This document shows positions 1-6,950 of a stretch of DNA of 29,899 nt, piece by piece. Source of the stretch: a virus; the IMG/VR virus record IMGVR_UViG_3300005663_000163, positions 1-29,899 of that record. One strand, written 5' to 3'. A program made the translations under genes and the position numbers. The notes under the pieces are model-generated. The model worked only from the letters and a program-made list of their open reading frames with translations. It was not told the origin of the DNA and did no database searches. Each line of letters starts with the position of its first letter. Position 1 is the first letter of the stretch.

Positions 1-1383
1 ATTCGGGAGGCGCATCCGCTTAAAGAGGAGCTCACTAACCTGCTTAGGTGATCCTGCGTTGATGTTGTAGCCAACTAGCTCGTTAATTTCTGACCCAATC
101 TCCGCCTTCATGTCTGCGAAGTAGACCTCGTTCTCGTCTAGTCGTTCGGGGTCGGTGCAGATTCCGGCTTCTTCGACTTCAGTGAGCATCTCACTCGCAG
201 GTAGGAGTGTTCTGGTGTAGAGCTTTTCGAGTGCTGAGTCACTTCTAACACGGTTACGTAGTATTGGCCTGATTTGAGCGGTGTTCGAGGTATCAATCGC
301 TTGATACTCTGCCAGAATTTGCGGTGGTACCAGTTCATAGGATGAATCCTTATTAGGTAAATAGGGTTTGATCATGTATTTGTAATCAGGGGCGCTGAGC
401 ACGTCACATGACACTGTTTCCAGATCGTGAATCCCTCCCAATTCGTCCAGGGTATACGACATGAGCATTGTGTCGTCGTCAACGTGAGCTTTAATTCCCG
501 CTGCTCTAAGGAACTTAACATCAAACTTTCCGTTGTGCCAGCACCACTGTATAGTTGACGCTTCCAAGTGAGGCCTAAGAAGCGGTAGGTGATGAGGATA
601 GAAGCAATAACTGATTCCGAGGTCATTCCTGGGGGTAATGCCAATCGATAGGATGCGGTCGTTGATGTGACTGAAACCAGTCGTTTCAATATCTGCCGTA
701 AGCTCATTGCTGCTCCAGGTTAGAAATTCAAAGAGGGCATCGACGTAGCCTTGGGTTACATCGTCAGGGATAATTCGTACGTCTGCCTTCAAGTGGGGTC
801 TAGGGCTGCCCCCTAGCCCGAGCTCCATAGCGTATTGGATGTCCTCGCGCCATTCGCGAAATGAGCCCGTCCCCTTCATCAGCGCAGCTACATGTATCAC
901 TGGCATGATCCCGAGCTCTGCGAGGTATGACTCAATAAGGCGGCCACGAATCTTTGTGATCTTGAGATCCCAGATGCCTGTAAGGGATCGTACTGCGGAG
1001 TTACCCATCGCTACGATGAGCCGGTGTGGGTATGCTTCAATCTTCTGCAGGAGACGATCACGGCAGCTATATGCTGCGGCTTGCATCCGTCTTGTCCCTT
1101 CTGTGCCTTCTTTTAACACACGTGCAGGATAACACTCCATTGCATTGAGGACATATACACTTCCATCGTCGGGAACGAACTTATGAAAGACCTTACCCGT
1201 GGGGCCTATTAACGGTTCTCCATCACGTACCTCGTCTAAGCCTGGTGACTCAGCAACGAAGACAATGGGAGATGCAGGATCCCCCTTCGAGCCTACCTTC
1301 GGCCCCCCGAAGGGGCAATCATCGCATACATCTTGAGGAGCATGGTCACATATGTAGCGGAGCTCTTCAGCTGACGAGTTCAT
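1..1383 (-). CDS. Uracil-DNA glycosylase / DNA polymerase A fusion (3' part missing)
   Basis: The frame is open for 461 codons from an ATG at 1383 to the window edge, so the C-terminal polymerase is cut off. Residues 1-190 resemble a family 4/5 iron-sulfur uracil-DNA glycosylase: cysteines 20, 23, 84 and 107 fit the 4Fe-4S ligands, ESPGLDEVRDGEPLIGPTG at 45-63 fits the active-site loop, and HVAALM at 164-169 sits where the second motif is expected. Residues 230-360 are a DnaQ-like 3'-5' exonuclease (ADIETTG with D231 and E233; HNGKFD with D288). From about 400 the start of a family A polymerase appears (INAGSPKQVSELLF). The start overlaps the dpdA stop by 17 bp, with GGAG 7 nt upstream. It is probably the replicative polymerase, co-transcribed with dpdA. 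Motif readings are by eye; the domain order is clear. Confidence 0.9.
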   Translation of the reverse strand, partial: MNSSAEELRYICDHAPQDVCDDCPFGGPKVGSKGDPASPIVFVAESPGLDEVRDGEPLIGPTGKVFHKFVPDDGSVYVLNAMECYPARVLKEGTEGTRRMQAAAYSCRDRLLQKIEAYPHRLIVAMGNSAVRSLTGIWDLKITKIRGRLIESYLAELGIMPVIHVAALMKGTGSFREWREDIQYAMELGLGGSPRPHLKADVRIIPDDVTQGYVDALFEFLTWSSNELTADIETTGFSHINDRILSIGITPRNDLGISYCFYPHHLPLLRPHLEASTIQWCWHNGKFDVKFLRAAGIKAHVDDDTMLMSYTLDELGGIHDLETVSCDVLSAPDYKYMIKPYLPNKDSSYELVPPQILAEYQAIDTSNTAQIRPILRNRVRSDSALEKLYTRTLLPASEMLTEVEEAGICTDPERLDENEVYFADMKAEIGSEINELVGYNINAGSPKQVSELLFKRMRLPN

Positions 1384-2140
1384 GCATATGCTCCACGTTA
1401 CGAATCACTGGGCCATCGGGGTGTGTGCGTTGCCAATAGTTACCACGATGCATATGTACATATGCAGAGGTTGTAGATAGATCTACTCTAGCAAACCCCA
1501 TTACAAGGGGATTAGCGGAATCGATTCCCATAACTCCAGGCAGCTTTGTGCATCTTAGGTCATCCGAGAGATATGCAGACATACCAAGGAGGTGCATCTT
1601 AGGATCCTCGCACTTGGCATTAATGTACTGGATGATAGGGATACGCGAACCTTCTTGATTAGCTATCCAGCGAGGAATCCCCCAGTAGTCGACATCACCA
1701 TTGGGGACTTCAAGGTAATCGCGAAGCCAGTCAACACACTGTACTAGCTCCGCCGCGTTAGATCCTTGTGGGACCTTCATTAAGGGGAAGCCGCAGTTAC
1801 GCAGAAGCGACGCGTGCTCCATCACTAGTTTCTGCGTAAGTTGAAAGTCACCTAGTACATCTGGTATCATGATGCAGTTAGCCTCTACCAGATTTGCGGC
1901 CTCAATGACTTTGCCGGGTGGAAGTGGCTGGTAGAGCTCGACTACGCTATTGTCCATGATGATGAAGCGTTCTTCAGGATAGAAGTCCTCCATGACTCCT
2001 ATATGGTCCATTAAGTCGATGTATCCTCGTGGGTACTCAAGAACATCGTGCGCTAGCAATAGGAGGTAGTTGCCTAGGATTTCTTTCTCATGCAACTGTT
2101 CCAGTAAAGTAAGTGGTGCAATCGGTGAGTATCTAGCCAT
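1367..2140 (-). CDS. dpdA: DpdA-like DNA 7-deazaguanine transglycosylase
   Basis: This 257-residue protein belongs to the TGT superfamily and resembles phage DpdA, which swaps guanine in DNA for a 7-deazaguanine base such as preQ0. Visible motifs are IMDNS at 61-65 (D63), IPDVLGD at 92-98, a WGIPR loop at 153-157, HLLGM at 183-187 and MGIDSANP at 204-211. The paired aspartates fit the catalytic residues of the family. It lacks the C-terminal zinc domain of tRNA-type TGTs, as phage DpdAs do. It has its own promoter just upstream and overlaps the polymerase gene downstream. FolE, QueD, QueE and QueC, encoded nearby, would supply its substrate. Family assignment is strong; the exact base inserted is inferred. 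Confidence 0.88.
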   Translation of the reverse strand: MARYSPIAPLTLLEQLHEKEILGNYLLLLAHDVLEYPRGYIDLMDHIGVMEDFYPEERFIIMDNSVVELYQPLPPGKVIEAANLVEANCIMIPDVLGDFQLTQKLVMEHASLLRNCGFPLMKVPQGSNAAELVQCVDWLRDYLEVPNGDVDYWGIPRWIANQEGSRIPIIQYINAKCEDPKMHLLGMSAYLSDDLRCTKLPGVMGIDSANPLVMGFARVDLSTTSAYVHMHRGNYWQRTHPDGPVIRNVEHMHELVS

Positions 2141-3166: not shown

Positions 3167-4879
3167 CTACACTCCTCGGTCTGCTTCGGGCCACAATAAG
3201 ACATGTTGCTGACATCCTATATGGACCTTCTCAGTAAAAAATTCCCCACCTTGCGCGAGCCCTAGCATCATCTGCGCAAGGGCTTGTTCGTTCTGTAGTA
3301 CCGCGGCAATACGTTCCTGGGGGCCCGTAGTATCTATCGGAGTTCCTGCGGTGAAGTAGAATGAGTCGTAGAACACCGTTGGGAGGGCTGCGTATACTTC
3401 CAGTGCGTATTTGAAGTCCGCTTCATCGAAGACTACGACCTTGATACATACCCGGAAGCTACGCTTAGGGCTACGGCGCCCTAACCAATTATATAGGTCC
3501 TCTATCTCGACGATATTACCGCTGGAGGGGCCTTTGGGTGAGAACGTGATTACATCTGTGGTCTCAAGCCAGCTCGGGAAGAATTGTCCTTGGGTCTCTA
3601 CTGCTACTTTCATCCCAGCCATGTTTAGGTGTATCACGAGTGGGCCAAGCTCTTCCTGTATACACGGGTCACCGCCTGTTAGGGTAACATAAGGCGCAGG
3701 TGCTAGGCTTTTGATGTACTCCAGGATCTCCATTGTGGTCATCAGTGTACGATTCTTCTTGACCTCCTCAGGCAGTACCGCATGCATACTGTCACAATTA
3801 TGTACTATAAACCCCTCTGCTACGTAGCTCCCTGCTTCTGTGGTTAGGTCGTACACGTGACGCAATTCTGTGTCTGGTACTATGTGTGCGGGGGCATGGG
3901 GAATGGCTTGTCTTCCTATGTATTCAGGATACTTCCGGTGTAGTATGGGGCAACAGTAGGTGAGAAGTCGAACCCAATCTTTAAGGCGGAATTCTACAAC
4001 GCCTCTACCTGTATCCCTCACCGTCCATCCTATACCTACAATGCTCAGGTGCGCCTTTAGTTCGTCAATCTTGTCTTGGTTCACACGAGCAGACTGGCTG
4101 ATTGTATAGGCTGTGTTAGACTTTGCCATACATCCCTCAGCATCAAAAAAGCCCGCAACCCATCCCCTGCTAAAATCTATGTCAGTAGGTATCCTTGGTG
4201 GGGACAGCTTTTGACGAAGTTTATCAGCTATTCCTTTACGGTTCGTGTGTAGTTTGTGAATAAGTGACCCACTACGGGCTGTATATGTTCTACGTGCTAC
4301 ATGAATTTCTAGTTCCTGTAGTATTTCTTGAGAAAGGTCGATAATTTCTACATCCTTGCTATCTATATCGAGTCTAGTCCCCTGATTACTAGATTTGGAG
4401 TATGATCCATCGCCAGCGATCATTCCTGCCAGCCATCCCATTCGCCAGTGACGATTTTGAACACCTTGCGGCACGTAGTATACATCCATCTCCTGGATCA
4501 ACTCTTGTACTTCACGCCAAGCGAGGTTAGTATATATTCGATGGTTGGGAGTACATACTAGGGAATTGGTAGAATTCTCGACCTCTACTACCTCCTGCAT
4601 GCCGTTATCATGTGTATCTGTAACTTCTGTAGATTGTAGCCGACTGTTGTGTTTACCATGTACTAGCGCCATCACATAGTCACCAGCCACAACGTCCTGT
4701 ATAGGCTTCTGTGACCAATCAGCCATCAATACGTGGCTATTTTCAGCCACGCACCAGGTACATCGCAGCCCACACCCACCGAGGCGTAGGAAGTGTGTCA
4801 CGGTCCCCGACATTAGCCCCTCACCTTGTATGGTGGGGCCAAAGCACTCGATCACTTGGAACTTGTGTTCCTTACTCAC
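3167..4879 (-). CDS. queE: QueE (7-carboxy-7-deazaguanine synthase) interrupted by an intein
   Basis: The precursor is 570 residues; the spliced protein would be 251. QueE is a radical-SAM enzyme that converts 6-carboxy-tetrahydropterin to 7-carboxy-7-deazaguanine. The N-extein (1-42) has the QueE start with FGPTIQGEG and LRLGGCGLRCTW. The C-extein (362-570) resumes with CDSMHAV, then VTLTGGDPCIQ and VAVETQGQF. Joining them restores CGLRCTWCDS, the 4Fe-4S binding loop, so the unspliced protein lacks a correctly placed third cluster cysteine. The gene overlaps the upstream 69-residue gene by 8 bp and runs into folE after one base. Confidence 0.95.
   Translation of the reverse strand: MSKEHKFQVIECFGPTIQGEGLMSGTVTHFLRLGGCGLRCTWCVAENSHVLMADWSQKPIQDVVAGDYVMALVHGKHNSRLQSTEVTDTHDNGMQEVVEVENSTNSLVCTPNHRIYTNLAWREVQELIQEMDVYYVPQGVQNRHWRMGWLAGMIAGDGSYSKSSNQGTRLDIDSKDVEIIDLSQEILQELEIHVARRTYTARSGSLIHKLHTNRKGIADKLRQKLSPPRIPTDIDFSRGWVAGFFDAEGCMAKSNTAYTISQSARVNQDKIDELKAHLSIVGIGWTVRDTGRGVVEFRLKDWVRLLTYCCPILHRKYPEYIGRQAIPHAPAHIVPDTELRHVYDLTTEAGSYVAEGFIVHNCDSMHAVLPEEVKKNRTLMTTMEILEYIKSLAPAPYVTLTGGDPCIQEELGPLVIHLNMAGMKVAVETQGQFFPSWLETTDVITFSPKGPSSGNIVEIEDLYNWLGRRSPKRSFRVCIKVVVFDEADFKYALEVYAALPTVFYDSFYFTAGTPIDTTGPQERIAAVLQNEQALAQMMLGLAQGGEFFTEKVHIGCQQHVLLWPEADRGV
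3797..4753 (-). mobile_element. Intein with LAGLIDADG homing endonuclease inside QueE
   Basis: The intein spans residues 43-361 of the precursor (319 residues). It starts with Cys43 in a block A context (CVAENSHVLMADW). It has a block B-like TPNHRIY at 110-116. Two LAGLIDADG motifs lie at 149-158 (WLAGMIAGDG) and 240-249 (WVAGFFDAEG), each with an acidic catalytic residue. The C-terminal splice region reads VYDLTTEAGSYVAEGFIVHN, ending in His-Asn, and the +1 residue is Cys362. All residues needed for canonical splicing are visible and the endonuclease looks intact, so it is probably an active mobile intein. Splicing itself is inferred. Confidence 0.95.
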
Positions 4880-5081: not shown

Positions 5082-5329
5082 GTTGGCTCCTTAATTAGCC
5101 ACCCATCTTTTAATGGGAGCTTGAAATAGTTGGATGAAAGCATCGTTATAACTACGACTCCACCCTGTGTGCCTGCCTCTTTGTATTTGAGGCGCTCCTC
5201 CTTACTACGCTTGTCGTTCCATTTCTCCATTACCGTGTTGATAGAGGTCTGATCTGCGAGAGTAAATGCTACATCTCCATCAGCCATTACACAGCATGCT
5301 ATCTTCATCGTCTTGTTCTTAGCTACCAT
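5078..5329 (-). CDS. Small hypothetical protein in the preQ0 operon
   Basis: This 83-residue protein was not recognised. Its N-terminus, with TMKIACCVMADGDVAF, looks like a beta strand with paired cysteines; the middle is charged (NDKRSKEERLKYKEAG) and the C-terminal part ends PLKDGWLIKEPT. The ATG lies 11 bp inside the queD end, with AAGG 8 nt upstream. It sits between queD and queE, which may hint at a role linked to the pathway, but no function can be assigned. Confidence 0.75.
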   Translation of the reverse strand: MVAKNKTMKIACCVMADGDVAFTLADQTSINTVMEKWNDKRSKEERLKYKEAGTQGGVVVITMLSSNYFKLPLKDGWLIKEPT

Positions 5330-5834
5330 AGTGTGAACCTTGGGTACTAGGATACCCCTTTTGGCCTGCTATAACCCACTGCTCGCGAGACCACTCGACC
5401 ATAGCGCTATTCGAGGGTGTTTCCCAGACACGGACGCTGCGACAGAAGACTCTCGGCTTGTAACCGTTCTCTTCTATCCAGACTTCGTTTATCCACCAGA
5501 ATAGGTACTCTGCTAGGCCTTCACATCCAGTCTTTGTGACCTCTCTAACTTGTGCCAAGCCTTTACGGTTAAGTTCTCTAAAGAACTCGAGTTCAGGATC
5601 ATCCTGAGCAACCAGCAGAGTATGATCGAAGTACTCGTCAAGGAAATCTCTGAGAGTACTAAACCCTCCGAAGTCGCAAACCCAATTCCGTACGTCCAAC
5701 GTTTCGGACTCGAACTCAAAATCGAAGGCGAGACTGTAACCGTGAATGAATCGGCAGTGAGAGTCTGCCTTGTGCTGACGATATGCGACACTGTATCCTC
5801 GCGAGTGGTCATATCTCTTAGTCGATACATACAT
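5319..5834 (-). CDS. queD: QueD-like 6-carboxy-tetrahydropterin synthase
   Basis: QueD converts dihydroneopterin triphosphate to 6-carboxy-tetrahydropterin. The 171-residue protein has the T-fold signature HCRFIHGYSLAFDFEFE, with C27 as nucleophile and H31, then FDHTLLV (D70, H71) and a C-terminal glutamate in VWETP (E138). Two of the usual three zinc histidines appear replaced: Y18 where FxAAH is expected, and Y33 in HGY where HGH is expected. I have the impression of a QueD-like subfamily sharing this pattern. A longer frame to 5930 exists, but the ATG at 5834 has AAGGAG upstream and begins at the conserved sequence. It overlaps the MazG-like gene by 17 bp. Confidence 0.88.
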   Translation of the reverse strand: MYVSTKRYDHSRGYSVAYRQHKADSHCRFIHGYSLAFDFEFESETLDVRNWVCDFGGFSTLRDFLDEYFDHTLLVAQDDPELEFFRELNRKGLAQVREVTKTGCEGLAEYLFWWINEVWIEENGYKPRVFCRSVRVWETPSNSAMVEWSREQWVIAGQKGYPSTQGSHYGS

Positions 5835-6264
5835 GATCGATTCGCTCCTTAACGTTCTCGTAGCTGATGAATGGATCTGTGAAGGGCCATTCAAGGTCCT
5901 TGAACTCAGGTTTCTCCCTAAGCCGAGCATAGAGTTTATAGGTGTTGCGCACCATTAGCTCCTGGATATCGATATTAAGCACGTCCATGAGCCGTGTCAT
6001 GTACCACAGTACATCGCCAAGTTCCTCAACGAGGAGTTCCTCACGCCCACTCTCTGCCAGTATACGGCGAAACTCGTTGTAGTTATTGAACCCAGATACG
6101 CGCACGATCTTCTTGACCTGATCGACGAATTCGCCTGTCTCTCCTGCGAGGCCTAGAGCGAGGTACGCTATCTCCCCACTGTCGTTATGCCCAGCGTGCT
6201 TGTACCACGAAGTGTCCTTCAGGAACTGCATGTACTGTTCTGCCGTTTGTGGAGCAATAATCAT
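5818..6264 (-). CDS. MazG-like nucleotide pyrophosphohydrolase
   Basis: This 148-residue, all-alpha protein has the metal-binding pattern of the MazG/dUTPase superfamily: GETGE with E42 and E45, and ELGDVLWYM with E81 and D84. Relatives hydrolyse (d)NTPs to monophosphates; some phage versions act on dGTP/dCTP or on alarmones. It lies between queC (4-bp overlap) and queD (17-bp overlap), so it is made with the preQ0 enzymes. It may shape nucleotide pools during modification, but its substrate cannot be read from the sequence. Confidence 0.87.
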   Translation of the reverse strand: MIIAPQTAEQYMQFLKDTSWYKHAGHNDSGEIAYLALGLAGETGEFVDQVKKIVRVSGFNNYNEFRRILAESGREELLVEELGDVLWYMTRLMDVLNIDIQELMVRNTYKLYARLREKPEFKDLEWPFTDPFISYENVKERIDHVCID

Positions 6265-6950
6265 AAGTGCATCTCCACTGGTTCTTGTTCATACGCTGTA
6301 GGATCTGTTACTCCTGCATCTCTGAACCCCTCTCTACGACTACGGCATGTTGGGCACATACCACAGTGGTGGACGCCCCCCTCGTAGCACGACCATGTTA
6401 GCTCGAAGGGCGCAAATAACTCCTCTCCTCGCCTGATGACTTGCGCTTTGTTCATGAACATTAGAGGAGTGTACAGTCGGATTTTGTGGTAGGTCCCGAT
6501 ATAGATAGCGTTAGCCATGCCTCCGATAAATTCAGGAGTACAGTCCGGGTATGCCCAATTTGCAGCGTCATCTGCGTGAGCGCCAAAGTACACTGCTTCA
6601 GCTTCTGGATCTGTCGCTGCAAGTGAAGTGATGCAGGAAAGGAGAGTTCCATTTCTAAACGGGACATAGGTGGGACTGACACCACCCGGGAGGTCGTCGT
6701 AGGAAACTTGAGGCATGACAAGGGAGTTATCAGTAATCCCACCTTTACCAATGATCCCAGAAATGTCCTTCGTGATAAAGGCGCAATCGAGCGCCGTTGC
6801 AACCATGTGCGCATGTTGGATTTCATTTGTGTGTCTCTGTCCGTAGTTGAAACTAACCCCGCACACTAGACCATCCCAGTCCTTAACGGCTTGTGCAAGG
6901 CATGTAGTTGAATCAATTCCCCCTGATAGTAACACGTATGCTTTAGGCAT
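6261..6950 (-). CDS. queC: QueC, 7-cyano-7-deazaguanine (preQ0) synthase
   Basis: QueC uses ATP and ammonia to turn 7-carboxy-7-deazaguanine into preQ0. The 229-residue protein has the PP-loop LLSGGIDSTT at 7-16, YVPFRNGTLL at 95-104 and the zinc site C188, C196, C199, C202 (SCYEGGVHHCGMCPTC). Length and motifs match stand-alone QueC. There is no N-terminal glutamine amidotransferase domain, unlike the GAT-QueC fusions linked to archaeosine-type DNA bases. Its start overlaps the upstream gene by 8 bp and its stop overlaps the MazG-like start. Confidence 0.95.
   Translation of the reverse strand: MPKAYVLLSGGIDSTTCLAQAVKDWDGLVCGVSFNYGQRHTNEIQHAHMVATALDCAFITKDISGIIGKGGITDNSLVMPQVSYDDLPGGVSPTYVPFRNGTLLSCITSLAATDPEAEAVYFGAHADDAANWAYPDCTPEFIGGMANAIYIGTYHKIRLYTPLMFMNKAQVIRRGEELFAPFELTWSCYEGGVHHCGMCPTCRSRREGFRDAGVTDPTAYEQEPVEMHL

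Follow-up and report, generated by a model that had tools for sequence, protein, structure and literature searches.

The queE locus and its gene neighbourhood

The window analysed is a stretch of viral DNA of 29,899 nucleotides (IMG/VR record IMGVR_UViG_3300005663_000163, positions 1 to 29,899). Its minus strand carries a reading frame for the enzyme QueE (7-carboxy-7-deazaguanine synthase) with an in-frame intein, lying among genes of the preQ0 pathway. The features were located as follows:

1367-2140, minus strand: conserved protein adjoining FolE, 257 amino acids, 42% identical to the protein next to FolE in another phage (L075)
2554-3204, minus strand: FolE (GTP cyclohydrolase I), preQ0 pathway
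3167-4879, minus strand: queE precursor reading frame (QueE with in-frame intein), 570 amino acids, GTG start, no internal stops
3167-3796, minus strand: QueE C-extein, amino acids 362-570, stop codon included (QueE profile and structure alignment)
3794-3796, minus strand: Cys+1 (C362), the third cluster cysteine of mature QueE
3797-4753, minus strand: intein, 319 amino acids, from C43 (Cys1) to N361
3797-3859, minus strand: C-terminal splicing region of the intein, HVYDLTTEAGSYVAEGFIVHN (TIGR01443 above cut-off)
4133-4165, minus strand: second LAGLIDADG motif, GWVAGFFDAEG (profile match; conserved columns among relatives)
4406-4438, minus strand: first LAGLIDADG motif, GWLAGMIAGDG (PF14528; conserved columns among relatives)
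4535-4555, minus strand: intein block B, CTPNHRI, with T110 and H113 (from the sequence)
4754-4774, minus strand: first two cluster cysteines, C36 and C40, and W42 at -1; C40 is Cys-3
4754-4879, minus strand: QueE N-extein, amino acids 1-42, ending CGLRCTW (alignment to known QueE structures)
5319-5930, minus strand: QueD, preQ0 pathway
5818-6264: MazG
6261-6950, minus strand: QueC, preQ0 pathway

FolE, QueD, MazG and QueC surround QueE, and the locus was therefore taken as a preQ0 cluster such as Hutinet et al. (PMC6884629) describe in phages. The 257-amino-acid protein adjoining FolE gave no match in Pfam, PHROG or PDB; it is also found in QueE-encoding Brevundimonas, Bacillus and Weizmannia phages, and may be a candidate DpdA-like enzyme that inserts preQ0 into phage DNA. 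No TGT (PF01702) was found by profile search in a 72-kb phage contig that shares part of this sequence (see below).

Two side observations concern the surroundings. The minus-strand reading frame at 1-1383, open at the window edge, combines a uracil-DNA-glycosylase-like domain with a downstream DNA polymerase A 3'-5' exonuclease domain. The metagenome that yielded the 72-kb contig also holds a QueE (L033, 2609-3328, plus strand) in which the first loop of the cluster motif is expanded (CDGAGNQWCTWC, C-x7-C-x2-C).

The QueE precursor

An earlier note, made from the letters of the window, had read this gene as a phage QueE with an intein at 3797-4753, and the boundaries proved exact to the base (C43 to N361, 319 amino acids, minus strand). 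The CxxxCxxC cluster motif is present and the QueE profile TIGR03365 matched over the exteins (E 8e-47) in two stretches flanking the insert; its score of 159.7, under the equivalog cut-off of 206.1, is expected because the protein is split by the insert. The QueE structures 5tgs and 6nhl were aligned on both sides of the insert, with CxxxCxWC corresponding to C36/C40/C43. Profile, structures and preQ0 neighbours agree with the naming of the gene as QueE.

Alignment to the QueE structures and to intein-free relatives placed the insert directly before the third [4Fe-4S] cysteine, where the earlier note had put it. The insert is in frame and its removal gives an intact conserved host protein, as is characteristic of an intein; the predicted junction, CGLRCTWCDS, would be recreated as proposed and matches intein-free QueE relatives. 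By calculation, the intein has a mass of 36.1 kDa and spliced QueE one of 27.9 kDa. The unspliced N-extein together with the intein Cys1 likewise reads CGLRCTWC, so the CX3CX2C string is complete before splicing, with the intein's nucleophile Cys1 (C43) in the third place. It had been claimed that unspliced QueE cannot form its cluster correctly; this is plausible, and is put with caution because the precursor still offers CX3CX2C with Cys1 as the third cysteine.

A stretch of 7,002 bases is 100% identical in another viral contig (72.5 kb), and an assembly error is unlikely since the same bases recur there. Neither a frameshift nor a lost catalytic residue was found: the frame is open, all catalytic residues are kept, and both contigs are identical in this respect. 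The same facts, along with the intact neighbours FolE, QueD and QueC, argue against a degenerate, dead insertion that would leave the phage without QueE, an explanation we regard as highly improbable.

Intein motifs, profiles and structure model

All parts of an intein listed in the earlier note were recovered in the insert: block A at Cys43 (C43-VAENSHVLMAD), two LAGLIDADG motifs, a His-Asn end and a +1 Cys. The residues of a class 1 intein are complete (C43 at position 1, T110-x-x-H113, H360-N361, and C362 at +1), and both LAGLIDADG motifs hold acidic residues that are conserved across 16 relatives. The comparison with intein profiles, suggested earlier as a check, gave two matches above cut-off, LAGLIDADG_3 (PF14528; 42.2 bits in two stretches, cut-off 22.5) and intein_Cterm (TIGR01443; 26.7 bits, cut-off 15.6), and one below, Intein_splicing (PF14890; E 5e-6, 26.8 versus a curated cut-off of 35.8).

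AlphaFold, given 16 aligned related viral inteins, produced a model of the intein alone (pLDDT 88.3, pTM 0.80); a whole-precursor prediction from two sequences reached a pLDDT of 35 and was not used. The best PDB matches of the intein model in Foldseek were the TliVMA intein, PI-SceI and then, for the endonuclease part, I-DmoI (E 4e-14 to about 1e-9). The modelled resemblance to solved inteins, with TIGR01443 above and PF14890 below cut-off, points to a Hint splicing fold. All expected sequence features being present, the insert reads as a complete class 1 LAGLIDADG intein and is predicted to splice.

Empty and interrupted QueE sites

Viral QueE genes were collected in two scans, one with a peptide spanning the empty site, and hence biased to empty alleles, and one with peptides downstream of the site only; among the 73 distinct viral QueE reading frames obtained, 69 had an empty site, 2 were interrupted and 2 lacked coverage of the site. 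Wherever the motif of an empty site was read, the +1 residue was Cys (66/66). The second interrupted QueE came from the downstream scan (phage L075). Its intein lies at the identical junction (CTYRCAW^CIAENS ... LVHN^CDTMF) and is 39% identical to the intein studied; the L075 cluster has the same kinds of neighbours, including FolE and the 42%-identical conserved protein beside it. Since only two viral QueE inteins were found, homing in nature is something that we infer.

An actinobacterial QueE (L262, 913-2676, minus strand), situated in a QueC-QueD-QueE locus, carries an intein at the same point with Ser1 and an Arg-Asn end. The plasmid and phage collections contained no further QueE intein. 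A short-peptide-pattern scan of the genome collection with the two QueE inteins gave 0 matches; a whole-genome profile search did match (see below). Four candidates for an intein-bearing QueE were rejected: in the faecal phage L038 the intein lies in a helicase-like protein, and in L094, L095 and L100 the extra length is a reading frame ahead of QueE.

Relatives in cellular genomes

The insertion position is peculiar neither to the phage studied nor to QueE, and is common to many radical-SAM families. The model NF038136 (intein-containing Rv2578c radical SAM) matched across the insert (E 1e-17). In its members the intein interrupts the cluster motif at the corresponding position (GCSHACxY^C ... 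HN^CFAR). Of the sets compared, this one matched the QueE inteins best, apart from the match of the two QueE inteins to one another.

Whole cellular genomes were searched with a profile built from the two phage QueE inteins and containing no extein (E below 1e-8 for Actinomycetota). Matches were obtained in 28 genomes in total (23 of 296 Actinomycetota, 3 of 331 Pseudomonadota and 2 of 250 archaeal genomes), and in all 28 the host is a radical-SAM or related protein with the intein placed ahead of its third cluster cysteine. The 23 actinomycetotal hosts comprised 21 with CxxxCx(aromatic)^C read directly, one DUF5131-type protein and one bacterial QueE; the hosts in Pseudomonadota (3) and archaea (2) were PA0069-like and AmmeMemoRadiSam-like proteins, these names and that of the DUF5131-type host being readings of the sequence and not profile results. 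The intein profile PF14890 matched in 101 of the same 296 Actinomycetota genomes; other inteins were therefore there to be found, yet were not picked up by the QueE-intein model.

Viral loci and residues at the insertion point

Viral sequences were scanned with the LAGLIDADG stretch alone as pattern, taken from six aligned radical-SAM-site inteins, i.e. inteins inserted directly before the third cluster cysteine, as the QueE intein is. The scan yielded 31 loci, 18 of them before the third cluster cysteine, in hosts of the Rv2578c/PA0069-like, SPASM-type, DUF5131, DUF1848 and other radical-SAM kinds and in both phage QueE. The remaining loci lie elsewhere, e.g. in inorganic pyrophosphatase and SNF2 helicase. 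At the shared point, 50 inteins could be compared: Cys-3 was present in 50/50, Cys1 in 49/50 (one Ser) and Cys+1 in 50/50, although Cys-3 and Cys+1 are not independent evidence because they are dictated by the cluster motif.

Several further viral loci were noted. In L339 and L341, which are radical-SAM-like, a related intein lies before the second cluster cysteine (GCDIN^C...HN^CSYCDK), L341 being grouped with L339 by the same junction. Related inteins in L331, L334 and L338 occur at one and the same point of viral proteins that share a VD/LD^C junction; L331 matches the Pfam inorganic pyrophosphatase (InPase), and L334 and L338 were assigned by junction only. Four DUF5131-type loci (L258, L322, L327 and L329; Pfam DUF5131 profile match given for L322) have the intein between the N and C of GCxN^C or ACDN^C. 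This placement suggests that the DUF5131 junction cysteine may correspond in function to the third cluster cysteine of radical-SAM proteins.

Possible common origin of the radical-SAM-site inteins

In a tree of full-length inteins, on which the claim of a lineage rests, the radical-SAM inteins were united with a support of 96/96, with three outlying rows left out. In the endonuclease-only tree they fell on one side of an unsupported branch (44/0). The splicing-domain-only tree did not unite them, and one clade was unrejected there (p-AU 0.304). A wider tree with more viral inteins placed all 34 of the 34 chosen radical-SAM inteins within a weakly based group of 39, the five others being three of pyrophosphatase type, one SNF2 intein and one that precedes the second cysteine of a radical-SAM protein. 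A strict single clade of radical-SAM inteins was unrejected in this tree (p-AU 0.132), and the claim of such a clade is weakened by the five others; the lineage seems to be centred on radical-SAM genes and is not a proven exclusive clade. Host families are mixed inside the group, DUF1848 with PA0069-like (99/94) and archaeal AmmeMemoRadiSam-like with SPASM-type (96/58), a pattern that favours transfer of the intein between families.

These trees also bear on independent insertion, by which unrelated inteins would have reached the same point in each family, Cys-3, an aromatic residue and Cys+1 providing a good splicing context, and would group through convergence or long branches. The lack of union in the splicing-domain tree is in line with it, as are the strict single clade of the wide tree, neither shown nor rejected, and the DNA flanking the site, which is only loosely alike between families. 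The full-length tree speaks the other way, and so do the extein-free search, which gave only radical-SAM-site inteins in cellular genomes, and NF038136, a model of intein plus host, which matched across the insert in 10 of the 10 viral hosts scanned. Independent insertion is on this evidence unlikely.

We consider it probable that the inteins represent an undescribed LAGLIDADG lineage specialised on the radical-SAM [4Fe-4S] cysteine triplet. It would be spread over several families in phages, bacteria and archaea (QueE, Rv2578c, PA0069-like, SPASM-type, AmmeMemoRadiSam-like, DUF5131, DUF1848 and probably MoaA). The splicing nucleophiles would occupy the position of the third cysteine, and splicing and cluster assembly would compete for the same thiols.

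Proposed mechanism and expected redox sensitivity

The element studied is very probably a class 1 two-motif LAGLIDADG homing intein in phage queE, inserted between the codons of W42 and C362, before the third [4Fe-4S] cysteine; it would splice to CGLRCTWCDS, most likely home into intein-free queE, belong to the radical-SAM-site lineage and probably be sensitive to redox state or iron as a by-product. Motifs, fold match of the model, empty sites and relatives at the same point were observed; splicing, cutting and gating we infer. Cys1 would attack the peptide bond of W42, the acyl group would then pass to Cys+1, and Asn361 would cyclise as the exteins join as CGLRCTWCDS. The normal third cluster ligand would be in place only after splicing. 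The endonuclease would most likely cut intein-free queE across a highly conserved stretch, into which the intein would then be copied.

A disulfide between Cys-3 and Cys1, or metal bound to the precursor CX3CX2C, would probably make splicing redox- and iron-sensitive. Such redox (perhaps iron) sensitivity is expected because C40 (Cys-3) is a cluster cysteine facing Cys1, as in Pyrococcus abyssi MoaA, in which oxidation leads to a Cys-3/Cys1 disulfide that blocks splicing (Callahan et al. 2011, according to PMC10663303 and PMC3922620). The suggestion in the earlier note that redox state could affect splicing thus stands in so far as it has this precedent and the required pair, C40 and C43, is present; the sensitivity would be a by-product of the site, perhaps a useful one, and not an established regulatory switch.

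In a stronger version, QueE splicing would have evolved into a switch: active enzyme would be held back until the cell is in a reduced, iron-replete state, by means of Cys-3/Cys1 or of iron or a cluster on the precursor CX3CX2C. The near-constant Cys-3 and Cys1 at this point, the redox trap published for P. abyssi MoaA (in the account of the two articles cited above) and the CGLRCTWC already present in the precursor are compatible with such a switch. Cys-3 and Cys+1 are, however, fixed by the motif and Cys1 is common in inteins, so that this conservation is expected without regulatory selection; moreover, most viral QueE have no intein (69 versus 2). In the actinobacterial QueE L262, Ser1 replaces Cys1, so no Cys-3/Cys1 disulfide is possible there and the disulfide is not universal among these inteins. 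We consider an evolved switch doubtful.

A selfish element is the first reading suggested by the patchy distribution among viral QueE and by the intact endonuclease motifs. In its plainest form this would mean that the site was chosen only as the most conserved stretch of the gene that offers a Cys+1, any redox or metal sensitivity having no biological role, and we judge it a likely account. Inteins elsewhere also lie in conserved functional motifs, e.g. in the ATPase domain of mycobacteriophage TerL (PMC5050341). Selfishness alone nevertheless leaves unexplained the restriction of the nearest cellular relatives to radical-SAM proteins, which other inteins in the same genomes do not show. The preferred reading remains a homing intein of the radical-SAM-site lineage with redox or iron sensitivity as a probable by-product.

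Significance

Inteins are usually described as tied to one site in one gene. Here, the relatives of one intein are found at the same catalytic motif in families that share little beyond the radical-SAM core. This is a natural series in which to study the routes of inteins into new genes and a possible link of splicing to redox state or iron. QueE suits such tests, being a small enzyme once mature and one that can be read out via queuosine in an E. coli queE mutant. The Cys-3/Cys1 arrangement throughout the family makes its members candidate redox- or metal-gated protein switches.

Comparison with known systems

A literature search, with most subscription papers lying outside it, returned no intein in QueE and no described group of radical-SAM inteins. 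A Campylobacter phage paper that names both inteins and radical SAM (PMC3322345) was rejected as a precedent, since its inteins lie in other genes. The element itself is an ordinary intein, and Rv2578c and, presumably, MoaA had already shown this kind of site; the apparent novelty is the number of radical-SAM families sharing the insertion point.

Splicing in a Hint fold with a LAGLIDADG endonuclease is, judging from the model, common to the QueE intein, PI-SceI and TliVMA, and the two-motif LAGLIDADG endonuclease alone is shared with I-DmoI; all three differ in their host genes, with identities of 11-18%. The mycobacteriophage TerL inteins (Kelley et al. 2016, PMC5050341) are likewise phage inteins with homing endonucleases in functional motifs, and most of the TerL-type inteins recovered share Cys1, HN and Cys+1; their hosts are terminases, and they fall outside the radical-SAM group in the trees. 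The phage preQ0/archaeosine DNA-modification clusters (Hutinet et al. 2019, PMC6884629) have QueE beside FolE, QueD and QueC as in the present phage, whereas QueE is interrupted here and the text of that paper names no intein.

The two closest systems are in radical-SAM hosts. Pyrococcus abyssi MoaA has the same Cys-3 and Cys1 pair, with the splicing-blocking disulfide described above, and its Cys-3 position, as reported in PMC10663303 and PMC3922620, suggests an insertion at the same CxxxCxx^C point; MoaA is archaeal and has been studied experimentally, whereas the QueE intein is known from sequence. The NF038136 Rv2578c proteins of Actinomycetota resemble the QueE precursor in the position (GCSHACxY^C ... 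HN^CFAR), type and approximate size of their intein, and differ in that the host is another radical-SAM family, the intein is about 25% identical, and the gene is cellular and not of phage origin.
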